Shown here: positions 1,125 through 49,861 of the stretch, one piece after another | Layout of the letters: every line of letters begins with the position of its first letter | Position numbering within the stretch: the stretch's first letter is position 1 | Origin: a bacterium | Lineage (GTDB): Bacteria > Elusimicrobiota > Elusimicrobia > UBA1565 > UBA9628 | NCBI GenBank assembly: GCA_021822495.1 | Contig: JAKAQO010000011.1 | Span: 1-49,861, forward strand | Reading direction: 5' to 3' | Length of the DNA stretch: 49,861 nucleotides | Made by a program: the position numbers and the translations under genes | Notes under the pieces: generated by a model | What the model saw: the letters and a program-made list of their open reading frames with translations, nothing else | What the model was told of the DNA's origin: nothing | Databases searched by the model: none

Positions 1125-3467
1125 TTAATGAATGCGCGACGCAAGCCAGAGCATCAGAAGGACGATTGGTCCAATAGCCGCGTTGGCGGGTCCAAACACG
1201 AGAGCCCAGATCAAACCAGCGACGCCCAGAAGCATTGCATAGCGAAGACCCATGGTCAAGATTCCCTTAATGCCTCCGCTTTCTTTCAAAGCGTCGGCTT
1301 GGGACATGCCGGCTCCAATTCTTGCGCGTATCTTCTCCAATACCTGCGCGATGCCGATAAGACCTCCCACCCCAGCCGCTAGCGCCGCTCTGGAGGCGGT
1401 CGCATGGGCCGCCAGGGCGGGAGCGGCGTGCGCGGCCGTCAAAGTCGCCGCGTAAACGGCCTTGGGAGCGAGAAAAGCCGCCGTTTGAGACATGAAGTGG
1501 GCGATTAAAAGGGGCAACCCAATAAATCCCACAACACCCCCGACAACGGCGCCGATCAGGCCGAAAACAGGAGCGAAAAGCATGATTGCCATTCCCGAGT
1601 CGCCGTCGCCGGTTTTCTTCACAAGCTGATTCGTGTAGAGAAAGGCAACCATGACGCCGACAGCGCCGCCGACAATAGCCCCGATAATTCCTCCGGTCAC
1701 GCCGCTGGCCAAAGTTCCGCCGACGCCCAGGGCCGCGTGAACCGTCGCCGCGAAGGCGGATGCGGGCGCGAACGCCGCCAGGACGGTTCCAATCGCCAGA
1801 CCCGCGATGATTTTTCCTTTATTAGAGGAACCGGAGTTTGGCGTCGCCGCCTTGGGAGCCGAAGCCTCGTTCGCGCCGGCTCCCTGTCTTACCAGCCAGA
1901 TATCGTTGGGTTTGTCTTGCTTGTAAGCGGCTTGGAAAATGCCTTGAGCGATCTGTCCGAGAAGGTCCTCGGTGACGGCGACGGTCTGGAAACCGCCGTT
2001 TTGAAAGACGCGAATTTCGGCCAGCTTGAGTTCCTGAATTTTAGCCACGGCCATCTGCGGCCACATTGTCACGATCATCGAACCTGTCGTTTCGATGGAA
2101 TTGTTCGGCGTCGTTGCCTTGGGAGCCGAAGCCTCGTTTACGCTGGCTCCCTGTTTTACCAGCCAGATATCGTTGGGTTTGTCTTGCTTGTAAGCGGCTT
2201 GGAAAATGCCTTGAGCGATCTGTCCGAGAAGGTCCTCGGTGACGGCGACGGTCTGGAAACCGCCGTTTTGAAAGACGCGAATTTCGGCCAGCTTGAGTTC
2301 CTGAATTTTAGCCACAGCCACCTGCGGCCACATTGTCACGATCATCGAACCTGTCGTTTCGATGGAATTGTTCGGCGTCGTTGCCTTGGGAGCCGAAGCC
2401 TCGCCCGCAATGGATCCTGGAATTTGGTACGCCATCCAGAAAGCGATGTTGTCCTTGATGATTTGTTGCGCCTGCTGACTGTCCAATAAAGGCGTCTCCG
2501 TTTTCTCAAACGTCATATGAGTCAAGCCATACTCGGTATAGAAGGAGCCAGACTCGTTGATAGGGAGATGATACATTTCAAAATTCTTATCCGGCTGGAT
2601 TTCGTTGGAAGAAACCATGGCAAATCCAGATCCGCCTGTTCCCAACTCGCCCTTGTAGAAAAACTTATACGCGCCCGGCTGTCCCGCCAGAATGACATTG
2701 TGATTGGGCGTGGTAGTATTGGTGGTATTCGCCGGAGATGAGGCAAAATCGGCCAGTTGTTTGAACTTGGCCAACTGCTCGGCGGTCAACTTCGTTATGA
2801 CTTGGGAAGGGGACTCCTGCCCAGGCGCGGGAACCGAAGACTCGGCTTTCGAGCCGTTGTCGGCGCCGTTTGCGCTCGATTCCTTTAAATAAAGGTTTTT
2901 CGCCTCGCGAGAGACACGGAGAAATGGCGGAAATTTCGGGATGGAGTTCATTCCATATCCGGCCAGGGCGGGTTGAAGCCTTGATCCATCAAACAAATTC
3001 GACCAGTTCGCGATATGGTTCAACACCGCTTGGTGAAATTTTTGGATCGCCTGGATGCCCCGCGCCGCGTGATGGGCCAAGGTCGCCTTAAGGCCGGAGA
3101 TTTTGTTATTCGTCACGCCGACGCCTGCGGCCTGCTCTGCCTTCGTCACGGCGACAATTTGGACGCCCAAGTCCAGAATCTTGGATTTGCTGGATTCCGG
3201 CTTACGCCGGAATGACGGCCCCTCAGTTTTTTCCAAGGCATCGTTCGCGGAAACACTGAGGAGGTCCTTACTCAAGAAATTCTGCGCGGAGCCTTCGCCG
3301 ATACTTTGCATTTGCGCGTTTAGGCCAGCGGGAACAACGTCTACGCTCGCGCGCGGAACGTTCACCGTCTCACTCAAGGTCGCCCAGCAGTTAAGCCCGG
3401 GACTCATCAACACGATCGCTAAGGACAGACTCAAGGACATCGTTTTCATCACCGCTTCTTTTTTCAT
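1125..3467 (-). CDS. Exported modular membrane-associated protein, paralogue B (780 aa)
   Basis: The start ATG at 3467 follows GGGAG. The order is: signal peptide (1-30), a variable linker, a helical block ending in the residues NLFDGSR (about 130-165) that is shared with the protein at 5618-7201, a central soluble region, an 89-residue unit present twice in tandem (267-bp DNA repeat, 1851-2384), and a C-terminal third of Gly/Ala-rich hydrophobic segments that look like several membrane helices with glycine-zipper spacing. A short palindromic DNA element is inserted in frame at 3191-3218 and encodes FRRKPESS. No enzyme motif was found. A surface or envelope protein is the most that can be inferred. 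Confidence 0.75.
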   Translation of the reverse strand: MKKEAVMKTMSLSLSLAIVLMSPGLNCWATLSETVNVPRASVDVVPAGLNAQMQSIGEGSAQNFLSKDLLSVSANDALEKTEGPSFRRKPESSKSKILDLGVQIVAVTKAEQAAGVGVTNNKISGLKATLAHHAARGIQAIQKFHQAVLNHIANWSNLFDGSRLQPALAGYGMNSIPKFPPFLRVSREAKNLYLKESSANGADNGSKAESSVPAPGQESPSQVITKLTAEQLAKFKQLADFASSPANTTNTTTPNHNVILAGQPGAYKFFYKGELGTGGSGFAMVSSNEIQPDKNFEMYHLPINESGSFYTEYGLTHMTFEKTETPLLDSQQAQQIIKDNIAFWMAYQIPGSIAGEASAPKATTPNNSIETTGSMIVTMWPQVAVAKIQELKLAEIRVFQNGGFQTVAVTEDLLGQIAQGIFQAAYKQDKPNDIWLVKQGASVNEASAPKATTPNNSIETTGSMIVTMWPQMAVAKIQELKLAEIRVFQNGGFQTVAVTEDLLGQIAQGIFQAAYKQDKPNDIWLVRQGAGANEASAPKAATPNSGSSNKGKIIAGLAIGTVLAAFAPASAFAATVHAALGVGGTLASGVTGGIIGAIVGGAVGVMVAFLYTNQLVKKTGDGDSGMAIMLFAPVFGLIGAVVGGVVGFIGLPLLIAHFMSQTAAFLAPKAVYAATLTAAHAAPALAAHATASRAALAAGVGGLIGIAQVLEKIRARIGAGMSQADALKESGGIKGILTMGLRYAMLLGVAGLIWALVFGPANAAIGPIVLLMLWLASRIH
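1851..2403. repeat. 267-bp tandem repeat, two units plus the start of a third
   Basis: The block starting CTTGGGAGCCGAAGCCTCG begins at 1851, 2118 and 2385, exactly 267 bases apart. The first two units are nearly identical over their length; the third continues for about 19 bases and then diverges. Because 267 is 89 codons, the duplication keeps the reading frame of the gene at 1125-3467 and duplicates an 89-residue segment. High identity means the event is recent. Confidence 0.9.
3191..3218. repeat. Dispersed palindromic element inserted in frame
   Basis: The sequence contains ATTCCGGC (3194-3201), a 4-base loop, and GCCGGAAT (3206-3213), followed by GACGG. This pattern matches the short palindromic elements (GTCATTCC...GGAATCCAG type) scattered in many bacterial genomes. 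Here it is translated inside an exported protein as FRRKPESS and is absent from the otherwise similar paralogue at 5618-7201. A related half element lies at 36776-36797. Confidence 0.6.
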
Positions 3468-3540
3468 TTCGTTTTATCTCCCGTCCTGGATTAAAAAATC
3501 TTGGACAAACAGATTCTACCGCCAAGCGTCGGCGCGTGAA

Positions 3541-3580
3541 AAGGGTCTAAAGGCCTAGACGCCGTCTAGGCCTTTTGGCC
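3541..3580 (+). promoter_or_regulatory. CTAGGCCTTTTGGCCC element, copy B
   Basis: AGGCCTAGAC (3551-3560) pairs perfectly with GTCTAGGCCT (3564-3573) around a GCC loop, followed by TTTGGCCC. GGGTCTAA precedes the stem. The element lies between the stop of the metzincin gene (3606) and the start of paralogue B (3467), so it could act in the 5' leader of the latter or as a bidirectional terminator. Compared with copy A, one stem pair has changed from T-A to C-G, preserving pairing. Confidence 0.5.
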
Positions 3581-3605
3581 CCCCGGGAATATCGCAGAAT
3601 TTCGG

Positions 3606-5453
3606 CTATTTGCCCGCGCGGCGGCGCTGAAGTTGGTAGACGGTTTTAAAGTGGCGAGGCAACGCTTCTCCCGTTTGACTGGAGTTCATCAGGCTATTCA
3701 TCGTTACAAGAGCTTCGAGTGAATGTCGGGAAAAATCATAAGTTTCGACGTATTCATCATTCAACCCCAAAATGTGGCCAAATTCATGAGCCGGAACTCC
3801 ATACTCAAAGTTGCGTTCAAGGTAAAAAACCGGGCCGTTGACATGAGAATTAGCGTTGCCGCCATCAAGGAGTTGCAAGACGTTTTCGGCGATCATTTTT
3901 CCAGAGTCAATTGGTTCAAACGAAATATCGGTCTCAATCCGGTAATTTTTGCCGCGATAGGAGAATTCTCCCCGCCAATAATCCTCGATGGAGGCTTTGA
4001 CCGCGCGAAGAACTTCCTCATCCAGGATGTCGGTTAAGAAATGGGCGCGGATGACAAGTTGCCCAGCCCGCTCGACCATGTCGAGCCCCTCATGAAGAGC
4101 CCTAGAACATATCTTTCTCTTCTTTCCTTTGAAAAATCCCTTAAAAATCGTAAAGTCACGAATTCGTGTTACGAACGAATCGTCATACAAGAACGATGAG
4201 CGCACGTAGGAGAATACGTCTTTCAGCTCGCCTTGAATGCGTTCCTTGAATTTCTCGGAAAATGGATGTTGGCCGAGGATTCCGGTTCGAGCGAGAGCTT
4301 TCTGGGCCACGAACGCGGAAACGGCAATCTCTTTAATAGCGTCGGGCATCGCGTAGGACCTTGTTTCCTGTTCTCCCCTTTCCTCCCTTATTTTTTCGCG
4401 TTCCGCCTGAGTCGTCGGAGGAGGAATTTCCCAGGAAGGAATCATCAAGCCGTCTTCACCCGACTCGGCGTGATCCGCGTCTTTCGGAATCAAGGCGTTA
4501 AGAGAAATCAGTTGATTATGGGACTGGCGCTCAAGAAGAAGGGCCTGGACCAAGGAGCCGTCCGCGAGAAGTTTTTCGCTTTCCGCCGCCTGACTTCTAA
4601 AAAAAGCCGGAAGGGATTTATCTTGGGCGGCTTGGGCGAAAAAGCGGGCGTATCTCTTGGCGGCATGGGAGGCGACGGCGGCTCTTTCCCGCGAGGATTT
4701 TTCGGAAAAAACAATTTGTTCCAGATTGTTGTAAATGTACCAGAAAATCCTTCGCGAACTTCCAGGATTTTTTATCAAGGTTTTGGCTAATATCTCCCAG
4801 TCTTTTTTTTTGGACTTATCTTTAAAGACGATTCTCGGTAAAGCCCTCGCCAAATCCGAAGATTTAAGCCCGAACTTAATCCAATCGGCGAGGAAATGAG
4901 ACGTGGCTCGGTTTAAATCCGCCCGAGTAAGGCCTTCCGGGAAACTAGTCGGCGACAAATCGACTTCCGCGTTCTGAGCCCCGCCGTCTTCGGACAAGAC
5001 CTGATCGAAAAATTGTCCTTGAACCATTCTCTCTTCCAAGCTCCCGGATGCGGAATTTTTTATCAAGCGTCCAAGAAATTGCTTGACCTGGGCGATATTT
5101 TTCGCCATCCACCGTTTACGAGCGGAATCAGCCGTTTGGCTCACGGGATTTTCGGGAGACGGGCTAGCGCGAATCAAGGCGGGCGTTTTTTTATCGGGGG
5201 ATAATTGAGGCGCGAGGTTCGCGTCTTGGAGCGGGGCGAGCGGCTCAACACTGGGATTGTCGACTGGAACTTGAAGCTCGTTTAACGAGATTTGATCCGC
5301 GGGGGAGAAATAATCGCTCGCCGGCCTTTCGCCGCCTGGAGTTTCAAGATGGAGCTCAAGGGAAGCGGCCGCCATCGGCGCGGCGGCAAGAATGAACATA
5401 AGGAGAGGCGCAAACGTTTGCCGCCCAAAACCTCGCGACTTTTCCTTGGTCAT
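3606..5453 (-). CDS. Exported zinc metalloprotease, metzincin-like (615 aa)
   Basis: An N-terminal hydrophobic stretch (about residues 15-30, LLMFILAAAPMAAAS) is a probable signal peptide. Residues 31-500 show no recognisable domain and may be a pro-region. Near the C terminus the zinc-binding sequence HEFGHILGLND starts at about residue 556, that is HExxHxxGxxD, followed about 30 residues later by SLMNSS, a plausible Met-turn. HExxHxxGxx(H/D) is the metzincin signature, and Asp as third ligand is known from snapalysin-type (M7) enzymes. The catalytic Glu is present. Upstream lies copy C of the CTAGGCCTTTTGGCCC element. A secreted or periplasmic peptidase is likely; its substrate is unknown. 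The ATG follows AGGGGT closely. Confidence 0.75.
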   Translation of the reverse strand: MTKEKSRGFGRQTFAPLLMFILAAAPMAAASLELHLETPGGERPASDYFSPADQISLNELQVPVDNPSVEPLAPLQDANLAPQLSPDKKTPALIRASPSPENPVSQTADSARKRWMAKNIAQVKQFLGRLIKNSASGSLEERMVQGQFFDQVLSEDGGAQNAEVDLSPTSFPEGLTRADLNRATSHFLADWIKFGLKSSDLARALPRIVFKDKSKKKDWEILAKTLIKNPGSSRRIFWYIYNNLEQIVFSEKSSRERAAVASHAAKRYARFFAQAAQDKSLPAFFRSQAAESEKLLADGSLVQALLLERQSHNQLISLNALIPKDADHAESGEDGLMIPSWEIPPPTTQAEREKIREERGEQETRSYAMPDAIKEIAVSAFVAQKALARTGILGQHPFSEKFKERIQGELKDVFSYVRSSFLYDDSFVTRIRDFTIFKGFFKGKKRKICSRALHEGLDMVERAGQLVIRAHFLTDILDEEVLRAVKASIEDYWRGEFSYRGKNYRIETDISFEPIDSGKMIAENVLQLLDGGNANSHVNGPVFYLERNFEYGVPAHEFGHILGLNDEYVETYDFSRHSLEALVTMNSLMNSSQTGEALPRHFKTVYQLQRRRAGK

Positions 5454-40577: not shown

Positions 40578-41678
40578 TTAAGCTCTGCTCGCTTTTTTCT
40601 CGATCATTTCTTTAAAGCGCCGGAAATATTTGAGCGCGTCATGGGGGCCTGCGGAAGCCTCGGGATGATATTGAAGCGAAAAAATCGGCGCCTCTTTGTG
40701 CGAAAAGCCCTCGCAGGATTTGTCATTGAGACTGATATGCGTTGCCTTGACGCAATCAGGCAAGGACGCCGCATCAACCGCAAAGCCGTGGTTTTGGGAA
40801 GTGATCTCGACTTGCCGGGATTCAATGTCCATCACCGGATGATTCGATCCGTGATGCCCGAATTTAAGTTTGTAAGTTTTTCCACCCAAAGCCAAGGCAA
40901 GTATTTGGTGTCCTAAACAAATTCCCAAAATTGGTTTTCCGGAATCAATCAAGGCCTTGGTCACCTCGATGATGTCTTTAAGAGGTTCCGGGTCCCCGGG
41001 ACCGTTGGACAAGACAATCCCATCCGGATTTAAGGCCAGAGCGTCTGAAGAAGAGGTTTGGGCTGGAACCACGGTGACGCGAAAGCCCTCCGCCGCCAAA
41101 GCTCTTAAAATGCCTCTTTTAGCGCCAAAATCATAGACAAGGGCATGGAATTTTCCAGAAGAACTCCAGGAATATTTCTCTCGGCAAGAGACTTGCGGCG
41201 CGAGCGCCGCTCCCACCATCGAAGGAATCATTCTCACTTTTTTCTTAAGGCGCCCGAGTTCCGAAACTTGATTTGAAATCAAACCGCGCAAGGCCCCCTT
41301 GTTTCTCAAATGCAAAATCAAGGCGCGGGTATCCACCCCTTCGATTGCGGGCACCCCATGACGCTTAAGGAAAGACTCAAGAGTTTCCGTCATTTCCCAA
41401 TTAGACGGATTTTTACACATTTCCCCCATAACAAAACCTGAGAGAAAAGGCCGTTCCGACTCGTAGTCCTTGGCGATGATCCCGTAATTTCCAATTAAGG
41501 GATAACTCATGACCACGATTTGGTTTTTATAGGAGGGGTCGGTCAAAATTTCCTGGTAGCCCGTCATCGCGGTGTTAAAGACAAATTCGCCTTCCGCGTC
41601 ATTGAAGGCGCCGCAGGAAAATCCGGGCCAGACGCTGAAATCCTCAAGGACGATGACGGCGGGCGTTTTTTTATTCAT
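40578..41678 (-). CDS. carA: Carbamoyl-phosphate synthase small subunit (366 aa)
   Basis: The glutaminase partner of CarB. The N-terminal domain has [20 protein letters not shown]. The class I amidotransferase domain has [17 protein letters not shown] with the catalytic Cys, [10 protein letters not shown], and [13 protein letters not shown] with the catalytic His and Glu. The ATG overlaps the stop region of hepT by 8 bases, so carA is translationally coupled to a toxin gene. carB follows at 5 bases. Confidence 0.96.
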
Positions 41679-42141
41679 CGCGCTCCATAATTTTTTGCGC
41701 GTAGGACTCGGCGGATTTAAACGCGGCGAACAAATCGGGGCAGTATTTAAACGCGTCGTTTCTCAACGATTCGATTTCATCCTCCAAATAGTCATGCGAG
41801 ATTTGATTGCGCAAATCGCGAATATCTCGCCAAAGAGAAGCCGAGGAAATGACTCCGCGCTTTTCCATACGGTTTAAGCGATCGAGCAAAGTCCCTTCAT
41901 TTTCGAGCTCGACGGCGTCTATGGCGCGAAAAACTTTCTGCGTCAAGATATCGGTCAAACGCGCGAAGCGCGAGGTCAGGGATTCCAACTTCTCGTCTAG
42001 TTCGTTGGACAAGGAATGCGGGAAAGGATATTTTGCCTGAAGAGATTCATGGGACAAGGTCAAAGCCTTGACGGCCCGGCGCGCTGCCTCCAACTGCTCC
42101 GCAAGATACTTCTTTTTCAGCTCGGTCTTGGATGGCTCCAA
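41671..42141 (-). CDS. hepT: HepT-like HEPN toxin (156 aa)
   Basis: A helical HEPN-domain ribonuclease with the catalytic RNxxxHxY motif in IRDLRNQISHDYLED (about 107-121). HepT toxins cleave RNA and are silenced when the partner MntA adds AMP to the Tyr of this motif, which is present here. The start is TTG at 42141 with GGGAG 7 bases before it; it overlaps mntA by 25 bases. Its end overlaps carA by 8 bases. The N terminus is Lys/Glu-rich and forms a longer helix than in minimal HepT proteins. Confidence 0.85.
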   Translation of the reverse strand: MEPSKTELKKKYLAEQLEAARRAVKALTLSHESLQAKYPFPHSLSNELDEKLESLTSRFARLTDILTQKVFRAIDAVELENEGTLLDRLNRMEKRGVISSASLWRDIRDLRNQISHDYLEDEIESLRNDAFKYCPDLFAAFKSAESYAQKIMERDE

Positions 42142-42446
42142 ATAATTTCTCCCTCGCTTTTGGCCAAATCGTAAAAACTGCTGGGTTTAGCGCCCGGATG
42201 TTTAAGGACAATATCTATTTTTTGCTCTCCCATTTTTTCTTTAAAGAGGCGCGCCCATTTTCTCTTTAAACCCGCCGCGTCCCGGACTGGGACATTGATC
42301 TCGATGAGAAAATCGATGTCGCCGCCGCGCGCATTTTCCTTGGCCCTGGACCCGAACAGCCAAACGCGCGATCCCGGAAAATCAGCGAGAATTGAATTTA
42401 AAACGCTCCGCACGAACCCCATCTCTTTTCCGTCTAATCGCGCCAT
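42117..42446 (-). CDS. mntA: MntA-like nucleotidyltransferase antitoxin (109 aa)
   Basis: A minimal nucleotidyltransferase with VWLFGSRAKENARGGDIDF, the GS...DxD active site, and a third acidic residue in KIDIVLKH. MntA-type antitoxins AMPylate the HEPN toxin (type VII system). The ATG at 42446 lies 6 bases after a GATACT box and has no Shine-Dalgarno sequence. It is the first gene of a mntA-hepT-carA-carB unit, so its promoter may also drive carAB. Confidence 0.87.
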   Translation of the reverse strand: MARLDGKEMGFVRSVLNSILADFPGSRVWLFGSRAKENARGGDIDFLIEINVPVRDAAGLKRKWARLFKEKMGEQKIDIVLKHPGAKPSSFYDLAKSEGEIIWSHPRPS

Positions 42447-44852: not shown

Positions 44853-44898
44853 CTTTTGGCCCTGTTCGATTTTGAAAAATTATCTTACACTGAAAAAG

Positions 44899-47800
44899 AT
44901 GAAAAAATTAATCGCCCTGTTGATTGCCTCGACTCTCTGCGCGCCCGGCCCTCTTTTTGCCGCCGATTTAGAAACTTCTTTTCATGCCGAGACCTCTCCT
45001 CAGGTTCTCAGCCTTTCTCAATCTCCTCTTATAGAAGCCGCGACTCCGCTATCAAATGAGGAACTTAACCAGATTCATCTTAAAGATGAAAAAACGCTTC
45101 AAACGCAAACCCCGTTAATTCAACAGATAACGCCGAGATTAAATTCGCCCGTGGCGCTCGCGGAGGCAAAGACAAAGACTAAGGCACTTCAAAAAACAAA
45201 AGAACATTTGTCTCAAGTCATCCAATACGCCCAAAAAATGATTTCCGTTCACCGGCAAAAGCTCGCGGGAAATCTCGCGCAATTTTTTGACCATTCCCGG
45301 GGTTTTTCAAACTCCGAAGGATTAACAGGGGCCGCCTCAAGCGCGCCAAACGCAAAAATATCTCTTTCGTTAAAACCTTGGAAAAAAATCGGCCTTGCCG
45401 CGGGCGCCGGCATTTCTTTAACGGGCGTTTCCCGCGCCCTCGCGGCCCCGCTTCAAACTCCGCAAAATGCGCCGGTCCACCATTCCCTGCTGGCTTCTCT
45501 TTTTAGCGCAAGCGGCCTCACCCATCTTGTTCTTACCGCCGCCGCCGTCGCCTTTACCTATTGGGTCTGGAAAAAATTTGGCGGCAATGTTGGGCAAAGG
45601 ATTTCTAGCTGGAAGCTCGCCCGAAGCGCGACCTGGAAAGCCAGCGCCAAAAAGCAAAAAGAAGAAGATGCCCCCGCATCGAGCCTCACCTTCGCTGATG
45701 TCGCGGGGCAAGATAAAGCCGTAGCCGAGGTTCGGAAAATTGTCTCGGCCTTTGAGGCTCCTTCCAAATACAAAAAACTAAACGCCAAGTTTAAGCCGCG
45801 AAACGCTTTCCTTCTAATAGGCCCTCCTGGAACTGGAAAGACTTTGCTCGCCGAAGCCGTCGCGGGAGAGCTTAAACTCGACAAGGACTCTTTTTTCAAG
45901 ACCGACGGGGCTTCTTTCATGAATAAATTTGTCGGAGTCGGCCCCGATGCCGTACACAAATTTTTTGAAAAAGCGCGTGAACAAAGCAAGAAGTCGGGAA
46001 AGCCTTCCGTCATTTTTATTGATGAAATTGACGGATTCGGCAGCCGCGGCGGGAAAAGCGACAGCGGCGCGGATCATGAAAAACAAATGACCATTGACGC
46101 CCTTTTAACCGAAATGAATAAGTTGTCGGGACTGGATTACAACATTATGGTCATCGGGGCCACCAATGAGTTCGGGAAACTCGACAAGGCCCTTAAACGC
46201 TCTGGGCGTTTTGGAACCCATATCGCGCTTGAAAATCCGGATATTCAAGGACGCGAGAGCATTTTGCGGCTTCACTTAAAGGAAGCCCGTCTCTCGCCTG
46301 AGATTGATTTCCCAAAAATCGCGGAGAAAACCACGGGCTTTTCGGGAGCCGATCTCGAGGCTGTCGCGCAAAAAGCGACTGAAATTGCCGTAGATGATGG
46401 CCAAAACGATTTCATTTCTCAAGCCGATCTTGAAAAAGCGGTTGAAAGCATAAAAGAAAACATCAACCAAAAATCCAGAGCCGTTGACAGCTCAAACGAT
46501 TCCTCCGCTATTTCCGTTCAATTCGAGGATCCGGAAACGATCACGACAGGCTTTGCCCAAGTGGCCGGTCAGGATGAAGCCAAGGCTGAAGTGACGGAAC
46601 TGGTCGATCAAATCAAAAACCGTTCGCGCTACCTTGAGATAAACCCGCAATTTCGCCCGCTCCGGGGAGCGCTTTTATTCGGGCCCCCGGGAACGGGAAA
46701 AACCTTGATGGCCCGGGCCATCGCCAAAGAATCCGGAGCCCTTTTCTTCAAAGTGGACGGCACGGACTTCCTTAAAAAGTTCGTGGGGGAAGGCCCGCAA
46801 GCGGTGCGGGACCTTTTTGACACCGCTTCCTACGAATCAAAAAGAGAGAAAAAACCGGCCATCATCTTTATCGATGAAATCGACGCTATCGCCCGCGCCC
46901 GGGGCTCGGACTTAAACGGAAGCGGAGACGCCTTGGTCAACCAGCTTCTGACCGCCATTGACGGATTTAAAACCGAAAACAACGTAACCGTCATCGGCGC
47001 GACTAACAAACCGGAATCCCTGGACCCTGCTTTAACGCGCGGCGGACGGCTTGAACTTCAAATTCCCGTCGGGCTTCCTGATGTTTTAGGGCGGGAAGAA
47101 ATTCTCAAAGTCCACGCCCAAGGGATTGCGATGGACTCCACCGTCAATCTCAGGGAAATCGCCCGGCAGACGGCGGGGTTTTCCGGAGCGGACATGGAAA
47201 GCCTGGTCATGAAGGCAACTTCCGCGTCCATCAAACGCGGAGCCTCCACTCTTTCCCAAACGGATTTTATTTCTTCTATTGACCGCGTCCAGTTGGGAAT
47301 GGAAAGAAAACTCGTCATGCCGGAAGACGAAAAAGAAGTCGTCGCCTATCATGAGGCCGGGCACGCGCTGGTTTCTCATCTTTTGCCGGACGCCGATCCC
47401 ATTCGCAAGGTGACGATTGTCCCCCATGGTCTCAACGCCCTGGGTCTCATGCAGGCCGTCCCTGACGTCGAGAGAAATATTCAAAGCCGCTCGTACTTAG
47501 TCGCCCGAATGGCCGTCGCCTTGGGCGGACGCGCGGGAGAAGAACTTTTAAACGAGAGAATTCACGGCAAGAAAGAAAATTTCTCCGGCGCCGCCAATGA
47601 CCTTGAAAAAGCGACTGAAATTGCCCGCTACATGGTCATGAAATTCGGGATGTCCGAAAAAATCGGCCTGGTCAGCTACGGCTTTGAAAACGACCGGCAA
47701 AATCAGAAACCGCTTAGCGAAGAAACCACCAAAGCTATCGAAGCCGAGGTCAAGACTCTCATCCAAGAAGCCTATCAGACGGCGAGAACCACCCTTCAAA

Positions 47801-47919
47801 ACAACTGGGAAGTTTTCAAAGCCGCGGCGGAAGAGTTGCGGACGAAAGAAACCCTCCGAGGAGAGGATTTCGACCGTCTAATTCCGAAAGCCCAGAACCC
47901 TAAGAGCTCGCAACAATAA
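44899..47919 (+). CDS. Exported or membrane-anchored FtsH-like protease with two AAA+ domains (1006 aa)
   Basis: Order: a signal-peptide-like segment (1-21, ending FAAD), a helical linker with a sequence ending FFDHSR (about 100-135), a hydrophobic segment (about 155-180), a membrane helix (about 205-225), AAA+ domain 1 (Walker A GPPGTGKT 308-315, Walker B VIFIDE 371-376), AAA+ domain 2 (Walker A 595-602, Walker B 655-660) and an M41 peptidase domain with HEAGH at 818-822 and the third ligand Asp901 in SGAANDLEKAT. FtsH normally has one AAA+ domain and about 650 residues. Both domains keep FVG pore loops and arginine fingers. Start ATG 44899; a TTG at 44872 is possible. Confidence 0.85.
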   Translation: MKKLIALLIASTLCAPGPLFAADLETSFHAETSPQVLSLSQSPLIEAATPLSNEELNQIHLKDEKTLQTQTPLIQQITPRLNSPVALAEAKTKTKALQKTKEHLSQVIQYAQKMISVHRQKLAGNLAQFFDHSRGFSNSEGLTGAASSAPNAKISLSLKPWKKIGLAAGAGISLTGVSRALAAPLQTPQNAPVHHSLLASLFSASGLTHLVLTAAAVAFTYWVWKKFGGNVGQRISSWKLARSATWKASAKKQKEEDAPASSLTFADVAGQDKAVAEVRKIVSAFEAPSKYKKLNAKFKPRNAFLLIGPPGTGKTLLAEAVAGELKLDKDSFFKTDGASFMNKFVGVGPDAVHKFFEKAREQSKKSGKPSVIFIDEIDGFGSRGGKSDSGADHEKQMTIDALLTEMNKLSGLDYNIMVIGATNEFGKLDKALKRSGRFGTHIALENPDIQGRESILRLHLKEARLSPEIDFPKIAEKTTGFSGADLEAVAQKATEIAVDDGQNDFISQADLEKAVESIKENINQKSRAVDSSNDSSAISVQFEDPETITTGFAQVAGQDEAKAEVTELVDQIKNRSRYLEINPQFRPLRGALLFGPPGTGKTLMARAIAKESGALFFKVDGTDFLKKFVGEGPQAVRDLFDTASYESKREKKPAIIFIDEIDAIARARGSDLNGSGDALVNQLLTAIDGFKTENNVTVIGATNKPESLDPALTRGGRLELQIPVGLPDVLGREEILKVHAQGIAMDSTVNLREIARQTAGFSGADMESLVMKATSASIKRGASTLSQTDFISSIDRVQLGMERKLVMPEDEKEVVAYHEAGHALVSHLLPDADPIRKVTIVPHGLNALGLMQAVPDVERNIQSRSYLVARMAVALGGRAGEELLNERIHGKKENFSGAANDLEKATEIARYMVMKFGMSEKIGLVSYGFENDRQNQKPLSEETTKAIEAEVKTLIQEAYQTARTTLQNNWEVFKAAAEELRTKETLRGEDFDRLIPKAQNPKSSQQ

Positions 47920-48009
47920 AAAAGGGGACAGTCCCCTTTCCTCATAGTCTTAAGGTCGGGACAGCGCCGTCCACAAAAATTGCGAAGAAGAGGCACAGTC
48001 CCCTTTTTG
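47918..48009. mobile_element. MITE-like element (about 92 bp)
   Basis: It begins with AAAAAGGGGACAGTCCCC just after the FtsH-like stop codon and ends with ACAGTCCCCTTTTTG, so the termini are inverted copies of AAAAAGGGGACWGT. The left end contains the perfect palindrome GGGGAC-A-GTCCCC (47923-47935). The interior holds CTTAAGGTCGGGACA, also present at 42486-42500. It has no coding capacity. The right end abuts the TATAAT of the next gene. Confidence 0.5.
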
Positions 48010-48015
48010 TATAAT
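48010..48015 (+). promoter_or_regulatory. -10 box (TATAAT), leaderless start
   Basis: TATAAT, then AGAGGC, then the GTG at 48022. The first T comes from the end of the MITE-like element, so the element may supply the upstream promoter context. Confidence 0.55.
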
Positions 48016-48021
48016 AGAGGC

Positions 48022-48696
48022 GTGGAACAGTCTCTCATCTTCAATTATTTAAAGCGTACGCGCATTCTCGAAGCGCCAAAGAAAACCTTGTCAACTTTTG
48101 GGGCGACCCATATTGAGTATCATCTCATCTCCCCGATTGATGATCTCAAGGATAAAACCCGCTTAAGGCAAGGAGAAGTCATCAGCCATAAGCCTCAAAT
48201 CATCACGGCTCAAGGCTTGGCCGAACGCTTCCAAGGATTTGGCTCCGAAGCGGATGAGTTCGCCAATTGGCTTAAATCCAGCTACGGAGAATTTCTAAGA
48301 GCCCTTGAATACCAGTTTCAAAATAAGGATTTCTCAGTTCAGGTCATTTCCGAGTCTCCCAAGGAAGTCGCCTCCCGAATTCAAGCCGACATCAAATCGC
48401 GGGAATTATCCAATCAAGCCGTCATCAGTTGCCCGGACGCGGCCTGGTCCCTGGCCTTAATGAAATTCACCCTTGATGAATCGGCCCGATCTTTCCCTAT
48501 TCATCTGCGCGATATGGAACGCCGAGGGATGTTCAACCCGGAAAAAAACCAGGAAGACCGCCGCCGCGGAGAAATTGAGTCTTTGTTTGAAAAGGCGGTT
48601 TCTGGAGACAAGGACATCTTGCCAGTCATAGGTAAGAAATTAAAAGATTATGGGCTTTTTCCGGAATACGAAGACCGCTACCTCAGTTTCTTTTAG
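48022..48696 (+). CDS. Hypothetical cytoplasmic protein (224 aa)
   Basis: The GTG at 48022 is chosen because it lies 6 bases after TATAAT; an upstream ATG at 47980 is inside the MITE-like element. The protein is acidic-basic mixed, without signal peptide or membrane helix. It contains EYHLISPIDDLKDKTRLRQG, SVQVISESPKEVASRIQADI and a Phe/Pro-rich C terminus (LFPEYEDRYLSFF). No family is recognised. The following exported gene starts inside it with a 47-base overlap, so the two are probably expressed together. Confidence 0.7.
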   Translation: MEQSLIFNYLKRTRILEAPKKTLSTFGATHIEYHLISPIDDLKDKTRLRQGEVISHKPQIITAQGLAERFQGFGSEADEFANWLKSSYGEFLRALEYQFQNKDFSVQVISESPKEVASRIQADIKSRELSNQAVISCPDAAWSLALMKFTLDESARSFPIHLRDMERRGMFNPEKNQEDRRRGEIESLFEKAVSGDKDILPVIGKKLKDYGLFPEYEDRYLSFF

Positions 48697-49861
48697 AACC
48701 TCTTTCGCGGCGCTGGCCAGTTTGGAATTATTTCTATTCATTCCCTGCGCTAAGGCTCAAACAAGCGCGCAATTAAATCAACAAGTTCAGGAAGAAGAAC
48801 GCCTCATTGAGTCAAACCCCAAGCTCGCCAAAGCCATAGCCGAAGAAATCGCTCACTCCTCTATCGGAAACAGAATTTCTCTCTCTAAAAGCAGTCTTGA
48901 AAAAACAAAGGAAATAGAAGCCTGGCTTTTGAAAAACCCTCAAGCGGGAGCGATCATCGGACTCGGCCTTCAGGCCGACGCCGCTAGCGGAAACCATGAT
49001 TTTGAAAACAGAATGAACCAGGAGTTGAGTCAATTTGAGCCCAATCCCGGCGCCGTCCACAACGCCTATTACCAGCTAAAACGGGCGTCTCGAAAAGAAC
49101 GCTCGATGCTTTCCGATAAAACCATGACCAACGAAGAGAGAGTGGAAATTCTCAACAATCTCTTTGAAGGACGGGGTAGCGGATCCAAGGCCATCATCCG
49201 CCGAATGCAGAAAGGTTCGTCCTCGCAATCTCCCGCCACGACCCTGATCCAAAATTTTTACAATCGTCTCAGCGCGTCTAATTTATCCGGATACTCGCCC
49301 GATATCGCCGCTCTTCAAAGCCAAATGGCAAGGGAAAATATTCCCGGCGCCCCCCCCCTCGTCGTAACGGGATATCTGGACTATAAAACCCTTTCGTATC
49401 CGGCTTATGAAATGAAATACGATCTTTCCAATCTTAAGCTGCGCCTCAACGTCGAAGAAACCCTGGCATTAGCCAAGGAATTGGGAATTAAAATTTCCAG
49501 TCAGGAAGCCAAAGATCCCGCGACCCTTTCTTCTCTCTTAGACAAAGCCCAAAAAAAAGGAATTCCCATCCCTCGGGATTTCCAGATTCAAACAGAAACC
49601 CTCTTGCGCGCCAAAAAGGCCCTCCAGGATTTTGAAGCCTTCGCTCAAAAAGGGCAAGCCAAAAAAAAAATCACGCTCTCCTTTATCCGCCGCCTCGGAA
49701 ATCTCCAAAACGAAGCTTCCCGCTGGATTAACGCGGCATTTTTAGAAGGAGAAATCAGCCGCATTCTTAAAGAAGAAAAAAGCCTTTCGCCGCGGCTAAA
49801 AGAAGCCATCGCCTCTTGCCCCGTTTCCGTTCAAGAGCGCGGGGAATATCTTGCGCGAGAT
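48650..49861 (+). CDS. Exported helical protein, 3' end missing (404 codons visible)
   Basis: An open frame from ATG 48650 to the right edge. The N terminus has Arg and Lys residues, a hydrophobic core (SFAALASLELFLFIP) and the cleavage-like CAKAQ, a good signal peptide. The mature part is helical and rich in Gln, Glu, Ser and Lys (for example QVQEEERLIESNPKLAKA and LLRAKKALQDFEAFAQK) with no known motif. The 47-base overlap with the upstream gene is unusually long, yet the signal peptide and continued codon bias support this start. Function unknown; it may join the exported family seen at the left end. Confidence 0.7.
   Translation, partial: MGFFRNTKTATSVSFRTSFAALASLELFLFIPCAKAQTSAQLNQQVQEEERLIESNPKLAKAIAEEIAHSSIGNRISLSKSSLEKTKEIEAWLLKNPQAGAIIGLGLQADAASGNHDFENRMNQELSQFEPNPGAVHNAYYQLKRASRKERSMLSDKTMTNEERVEILNNLFEGRGSGSKAIIRRMQKGSSSQSPATTLIQNFYNRLSASNLSGYSPDIAALQSQMARENIPGAPPLVVTGYLDYKTLSYPAYEMKYDLSNLKLRLNVEETLALAKELGIKISSQEAKDPATLSSLLDKAQKKGIPIPRDFQIQTETLLRAKKALQDFEAFAQKGQAKKKITLSFIRRLGNLQNEASRWINAAFLEGEISRILKEEKSLSPRLKEAIASCPVSVQERGEYLARD

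Follow-up and report, generated by a model that had tools for sequence, protein, structure and literature searches.

The window, the whole 49,861-nucleotide stretch of DNA analyzed here, encodes an M41 AAA protease that carries two complete AAA+ modules, AAA1 and AAA2, ahead of a single zinc peptidase domain. Among the 341 Elusimicrobiota genomes searched, this double-AAA M41 arrangement is confined to one uncultured genus, in which purifying selection acts strongly on both AAA+ modules and on the M41 domain. For the additional module, duplication within the lineage, either internally or of a tandem gene, appears to be the likeliest and simplest origin. The usual approach to the use of one versus two motor rings in AAA+ machines is to compare unrelated proteins. 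In this case, a ring has apparently been duplicated inside one protease family that has living single-ring relatives, so that the benefit of a second ring becomes directly testable by comparing or deleting modules.

Architecture and family assignment

The double-AAA gene is one uninterrupted frame from ATG to stop; an alternative in-frame TTG start at 44872 would add nine residues to the 1006-residue product. From its signal-peptide-like start, the protein continues through a spacer and a membrane helix into AAA1, AAA2 and M41. The features of the gene and of its downstream neighbors are:

44899..47919, + strand: whole gene, double-AAA M41 protease, 1006 aa (single open frame; orthologues L025, L026, L027)
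44899..44961, + strand: signal-peptide-like N-terminus, residues 1-21, MKKLIALLIASTLCAPGPLFA (hydropathy; kept in orthologues)
44962..45492, + strand: spacer, residues 22-198 (~175 aa), poorly conserved, predicted periplasmic, without Pfam match
45493..45579, + strand: predicted membrane helix, residues about 199-227 (hydropathy; K/R count)
45580..45669, + strand: basic stalk between membrane helix and AAA1, residues 228-257 (sequence, charge count)
45670..46482, + strand: AAA1 module, residues 258-528, Walker A at 45820-45843 (Pfam, AF2 model, dN/dS)
46483..46530, + strand: inter-module linker, residues 529-544 (orthologue identity, constant Walker A spacing)
46531..47283, + strand: AAA2 module, residues 545-795, Walker A at 46681-46704 (Pfam, dN/dS, tree)
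47284..47898, + strand: M41 zinc peptidase, residues 796-1000, HEAGH at 47350-47364 (PF01434; model match to FtsH 2ce7)
47980..48696, + strand: downstream gene, 238 aa (start uncertain), without Pfam match, possible partner (same order in L026)
48650..49861, + strand: second downstream gene, truncated at the window end, signal-peptide-like start, without Pfam match, possible partner

A Pfam search of the protein returns AAA twice, AAA_lid_3 twice and Peptidase_M41 once, all far above cut-offs (e.g., 187 bits against 29.9 for PF01434 at residues 806-994); with the single frame, this bears out the sequence-only reading of one chain with a single M41 domain behind two complete AAA+ modules. The Walker A motifs lie exactly where that reading had placed them, at residues 308-315 and 595-602, and the pore loops and arginine fingers that it attributed to both modules are readily located: FVG at residues 344-346 (AAA1) and 628-630 (AAA2), RxGR at 434/437 and 714/717, respectively. 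Each module also has a Walker B DE pair (375-376 and 659-660) and a sensor-1 Asn (423 and 703), and the M41 zinc site consists of HEAGH (818-822) and a third ligand, D901.

The double-AAA protein is an M41 AAA protease, with HEXXH, an Asp as the third ligand and an AAA+ module directly before M41 in the chain, and it is not an FtsH equivalog. The whole protein scores 716 with the FtsH equivalog model TIGR01241 (NCBIfam, cut-off 600) because its AAA is counted twice; AAA2-M41 alone scores 480, as compared with 527 for the single-AAA relative L009 and 831 for L001, the conventional FtsH of the same genome. Of the two marks of an FtsH equivalog, a single-AAA full-length score above 600 and an FtsH_ext domain, neither is found. 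Automatic annotation hides the variant, which passes the FtsH cut-off through its doubly counted ATPase.

Like FtsH, m-AAA and i-AAA proteases (MEROPS M41, TIGR01241), the double-AAA protein combines AAA+ and M41 in one chain, has the same zinc site and has a predicted membrane anchor ahead of the ATPase; in the full-length model, its AAA2-M41 unit is predicted to fold like FtsH 2ce7 (Z 33.8, 3.2 Å, 404 residues aligned). Unlike these proteases, it has an additional complete AAA+ module ahead of the usual one, a putative signal peptide in place of TM1 and no FtsH_ext match. Two classic-clade AAA+ modules are also present in Cdc48/p97 (type II AAA) and in the phylum's CDC48-like proteins L075 and L076, and the Walker A spacing of the latter is similar to that found here (275 and 287, respectively), but these chains contain no protease. 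ClpA and ClpB likewise have two AAA+ modules per chain; their protease, where present, is a separate protein. The protein scores 364 bits with the CDC48/p97 model TIGR01243 (cut-off 802.65), 40 bits with the ClpA model TIGR02639 (cut-off 993) and 39 bits with the ClpB model (cut-off 1232). Both modules derive from FtsH-type domains, not from the p97 or ClpA side.

At the N-terminus, a hydropathy peak at residues 4-22 agrees with the signal peptide claimed by the sequence-only reading, and one further hydrophobic helix spans about residues 197-227. The suggestion that the topology may differ from that of FtsH fares less well. The signal-peptide-like start, the single helix and the basic stalk (1 K/R in the 24 residues before the helix, 9 in the 33 residues after it) argue for a protein that is probably N-out/C-in, with the motor cytoplasmic as in FtsH and the signal peptide replacing TM1; single-AAA relatives have the same N-terminal design. 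The real N-terminal difference from FtsH lies in the periplasmic domain: FtsH_ext, present in L001, has no Pfam match in residues 1-257 of the double-AAA protein. The spacer, itself devoid of Pfam matches, contains a helical stretch at ~85-137 by DSSP of the predicted model.

Possible roles of the two AAA+ modules

The same domain order, sought in relatives, recurs in three more assemblies from the genus (L025, L026 and L027), whose proteins are 77-78% identical to that of the window; two of the three are complete and L027 runs off the contig end within AAA2. The genus sample comprises five genomes, the window's included, and the orthologue records are metagenome assemblies. The distance from Walker A to Walker A is 287 aa in all four proteins, and the inter-module linker of the window protein is 81-88% identical to those of its orthologues. 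The dN/dS ratios against the window are low in AAA1 (0.06-0.08), AAA2 (0.04-0.05) and M41 (0.05-0.09), indicating that selection maintains both motors and the protease; AAA1 evolves slightly faster than AAA2. The N-terminal spacer has 41-48% identity between orthologues and a dN/dS of 0.33-0.37.

Modeled alone by AF2, AAA1 is predicted to form a complete AAA+ fold (pLDDT 85, pTM 0.82), whose closest matches, tied within 1, are PAN 3h4m (Z 26.9, 2.0 Å, 253 residues) and i-AAA 5ubv (Z 26.3, 2.5 Å, 244 residues). In the full-length alignment every single-AAA sequence aligns to AAA2 and none deepens AAA1. A comparison of the full-length model to p97 across both modules gives an rmsd of ~26 Å and no p97-like stacking, with the AAA1 orientation unreliable.

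The protein is rather likely to be a membrane-anchored M41 hexamer in which AAA+ has been duplicated in the lineage and the AAA1 ring feeds the AAA2-M41 core. Six chains would build three tiers below the inner membrane, the AAA1 tier lying closest to it, the AAA2 tier in the middle and the M41 chamber farthest away. Membrane or misfolded substrates would first be gripped and pulled by AAA1 and then passed to AAA2, which would thread them into M41. We infer the hexamer, its stacking, an active AAA1, the division of labor and the substrates from the known families; the full-length AF2 model (pLDDT 60, pTM 0.35) is too weak to place AAA1 or to show ring stacking. The broader description of the protein as a single-chain type II AAA protease, membrane-anchored, with two active stacked AAA+ rings and its own protease ring, made by duplication of the FtsH motor and uniting unfoldase, second motor and peptidase in an unbroken three-tier machine, is tentative, if quite possible.

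AAA1 could instead be mainly structural or regulatory, binding ATP and holding the hexamer together or recruiting substrate at the membrane, with AAA2-M41 acting as an ordinary FtsH core; the D1 ring of p97 is often described in such a role. The DGF inter-subunit signaling motif, kept in AAA2, is replaced by NKL or NNL in AAA1 of all orthologues, so AAA1 may hydrolyze ATP differently or mainly serve assembly, and the slightly weaker constraint on AAA1 points the same way. However, AAA1 retains the glutamate of Walker B, both residues of the arginine finger, sensor 1 and an aromatic pore loop, all invariant in the four orthologues, and DGF is also missing from the single-AAA relatives L010, L011 and L100, so that a motor without it may still be active. 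This motif varies among AAA proteins (PMC7018516). A mainly structural or regulatory AAA1 appears unlikely, and the feeding of AAA2 by AAA1 is the preferred reading.

Origin of the second AAA+ module

The AAA tree pairs AAA1 with AAA2 as sisters (92/83) and places the pair inside a clade of single-AAA M41 proteins, L009, L010, L011, L100 and L105 (100/97). When AAA2 is left out, AAA1 stays in this clade (98/99), as does AAA2 when AAA1 is left out (99/97); the M41 domain groups with that of L009 (94/88). These proteins, which belong to the same order, are the nearest relatives by tree: they share the low-complexity spacer, one membrane helix, AAA and M41, as well as the signal-peptide-like start (read in L009-L011), but have one AAA+ module. 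Duplication is held likeliest because the trees put both modules in this one signal-peptide clade.

A fusion joining two distinct M41 paralogues that had long been separate, instead of a duplication of one, would fit the low identity of AAA1 and AAA2 (only 41%) and the fact that their sister grouping is not starred; an alternative tree, with AAA1 outside the AAA2 + L009 group, also survives (p-AU 0.07). Yet each module taken alone falls in the same clade, and a longer insert preceding Walker B is common to both. L074, a distant single-AAA paralogue with an AAA that matched AAA1 more closely than it matched AAA2, was considered as the source of AAA1 and is rejected by the AU test (p-AU 0.02). 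Fusion of paralogues is accordingly improbable, and duplication within the lineage remains the preferred origin. An artificial joining of two adjacent ftsH genes by misassembly or frameshift, the outcome that would have undone the sequence-only reading, has nothing in its favor except the unusual architecture and is virtually ruled out by the orthologues: there is no stop or frameshift, four separate assemblies share the architecture and the 287-residue spacing, and both modules and M41 are under purifying selection.

Distribution and genomic neighborhood

The genome has four M41 loci: L001, the double-AAA protein, L003 (a longer single-AAA M41 protein) and L004 (a divergent single-AAA M41 protein). 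L001 (606 aa, with FtsH_ext) is the second, conventional ftsH whose presence the sequence-only reading had left to be checked; since it is present, the housekeeping FtsH role probably lies with another gene than the double-AAA one.

Across 44 genomes of the family, a profile of AAA1 scores ~600 bits only in four genus members; the next best matches, near 200 bits, are the genus members' own AAA2 and single-AAA relatives. A profile of the AAA-AAA junction, run against the 341 Elusimicrobiota genomes, finds at E 1e-40 or better the four genus proteins as well as five CDC48-like frames that are 719-743 aa long; M41 is absent from L075 and L076, the two of these five that were read. Each of the other M41 frames that were read, the longest of 1286 aa, has one AAA. 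No close relative was found on viral contigs, and spread by plasmids or phages is rejected: none of the 1333 plasmid or 123 phage records that match covers 80% of the protein, and the plasmid and phage places listed are single-AAA FtsH matched twice. Nor was a double-AAA FtsH found in the open-access journal papers searched, which bears on whether the family had already been described.

Other M41 variants occur in the phylum. L073 (1118 aa), considered as a second double-AAA candidate, is rejected as an intein carrier: at 1831-5184 (G052:C6) it is a conventional FtsH with a ~430-aa intein-like insertion within the AAA domain (Intein_splicing in Pfam at 30 bits, slightly below cut-off). Weak N-terminal matches to HEAT repeats are present in seven single-AAA M41 proteins of 970-1286 aa from the same order (L061, L065, L067, L068, L069, L071 and L103), and L068 has several hydrophobic stretches at 318-488.

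Elsewhere in the window, at 41671-42446 on the reverse strand, a nucleotidyltransferase-domain gene is followed by a HepT-like gene (match below the Pfam cut-off), as in MNT/HepT toxin-antitoxin pairs. The two genes downstream of the double-AAA gene follow it in the same direction both in the window and in L026, where the second is complete (524 aa). In G003, the fifth genome of the genus, they adjoin an M41 remnant consisting of the last 108 residues and preceded by an IS3-OrfA-like sequence, recognized by eye. With only this remnant present and no match to the AAA1 profile in G003, the double-AAA gene has evidently been lost there.

The N-terminal module (signal peptide and spacer) is otherwise single-copy and genus-confined among the family genomes searched. 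In G003 (contig C68, L077 1246-1950 and 2603-3160) it is 53% identical and heads two other proteins, adjoining the same YchF-like GTPase gene. One of these proteins has ankyrin repeats; the other, of 1872 aa, combines an M50 peptidase, a ClpB-like AAA and an FGE-sulfatase domain.
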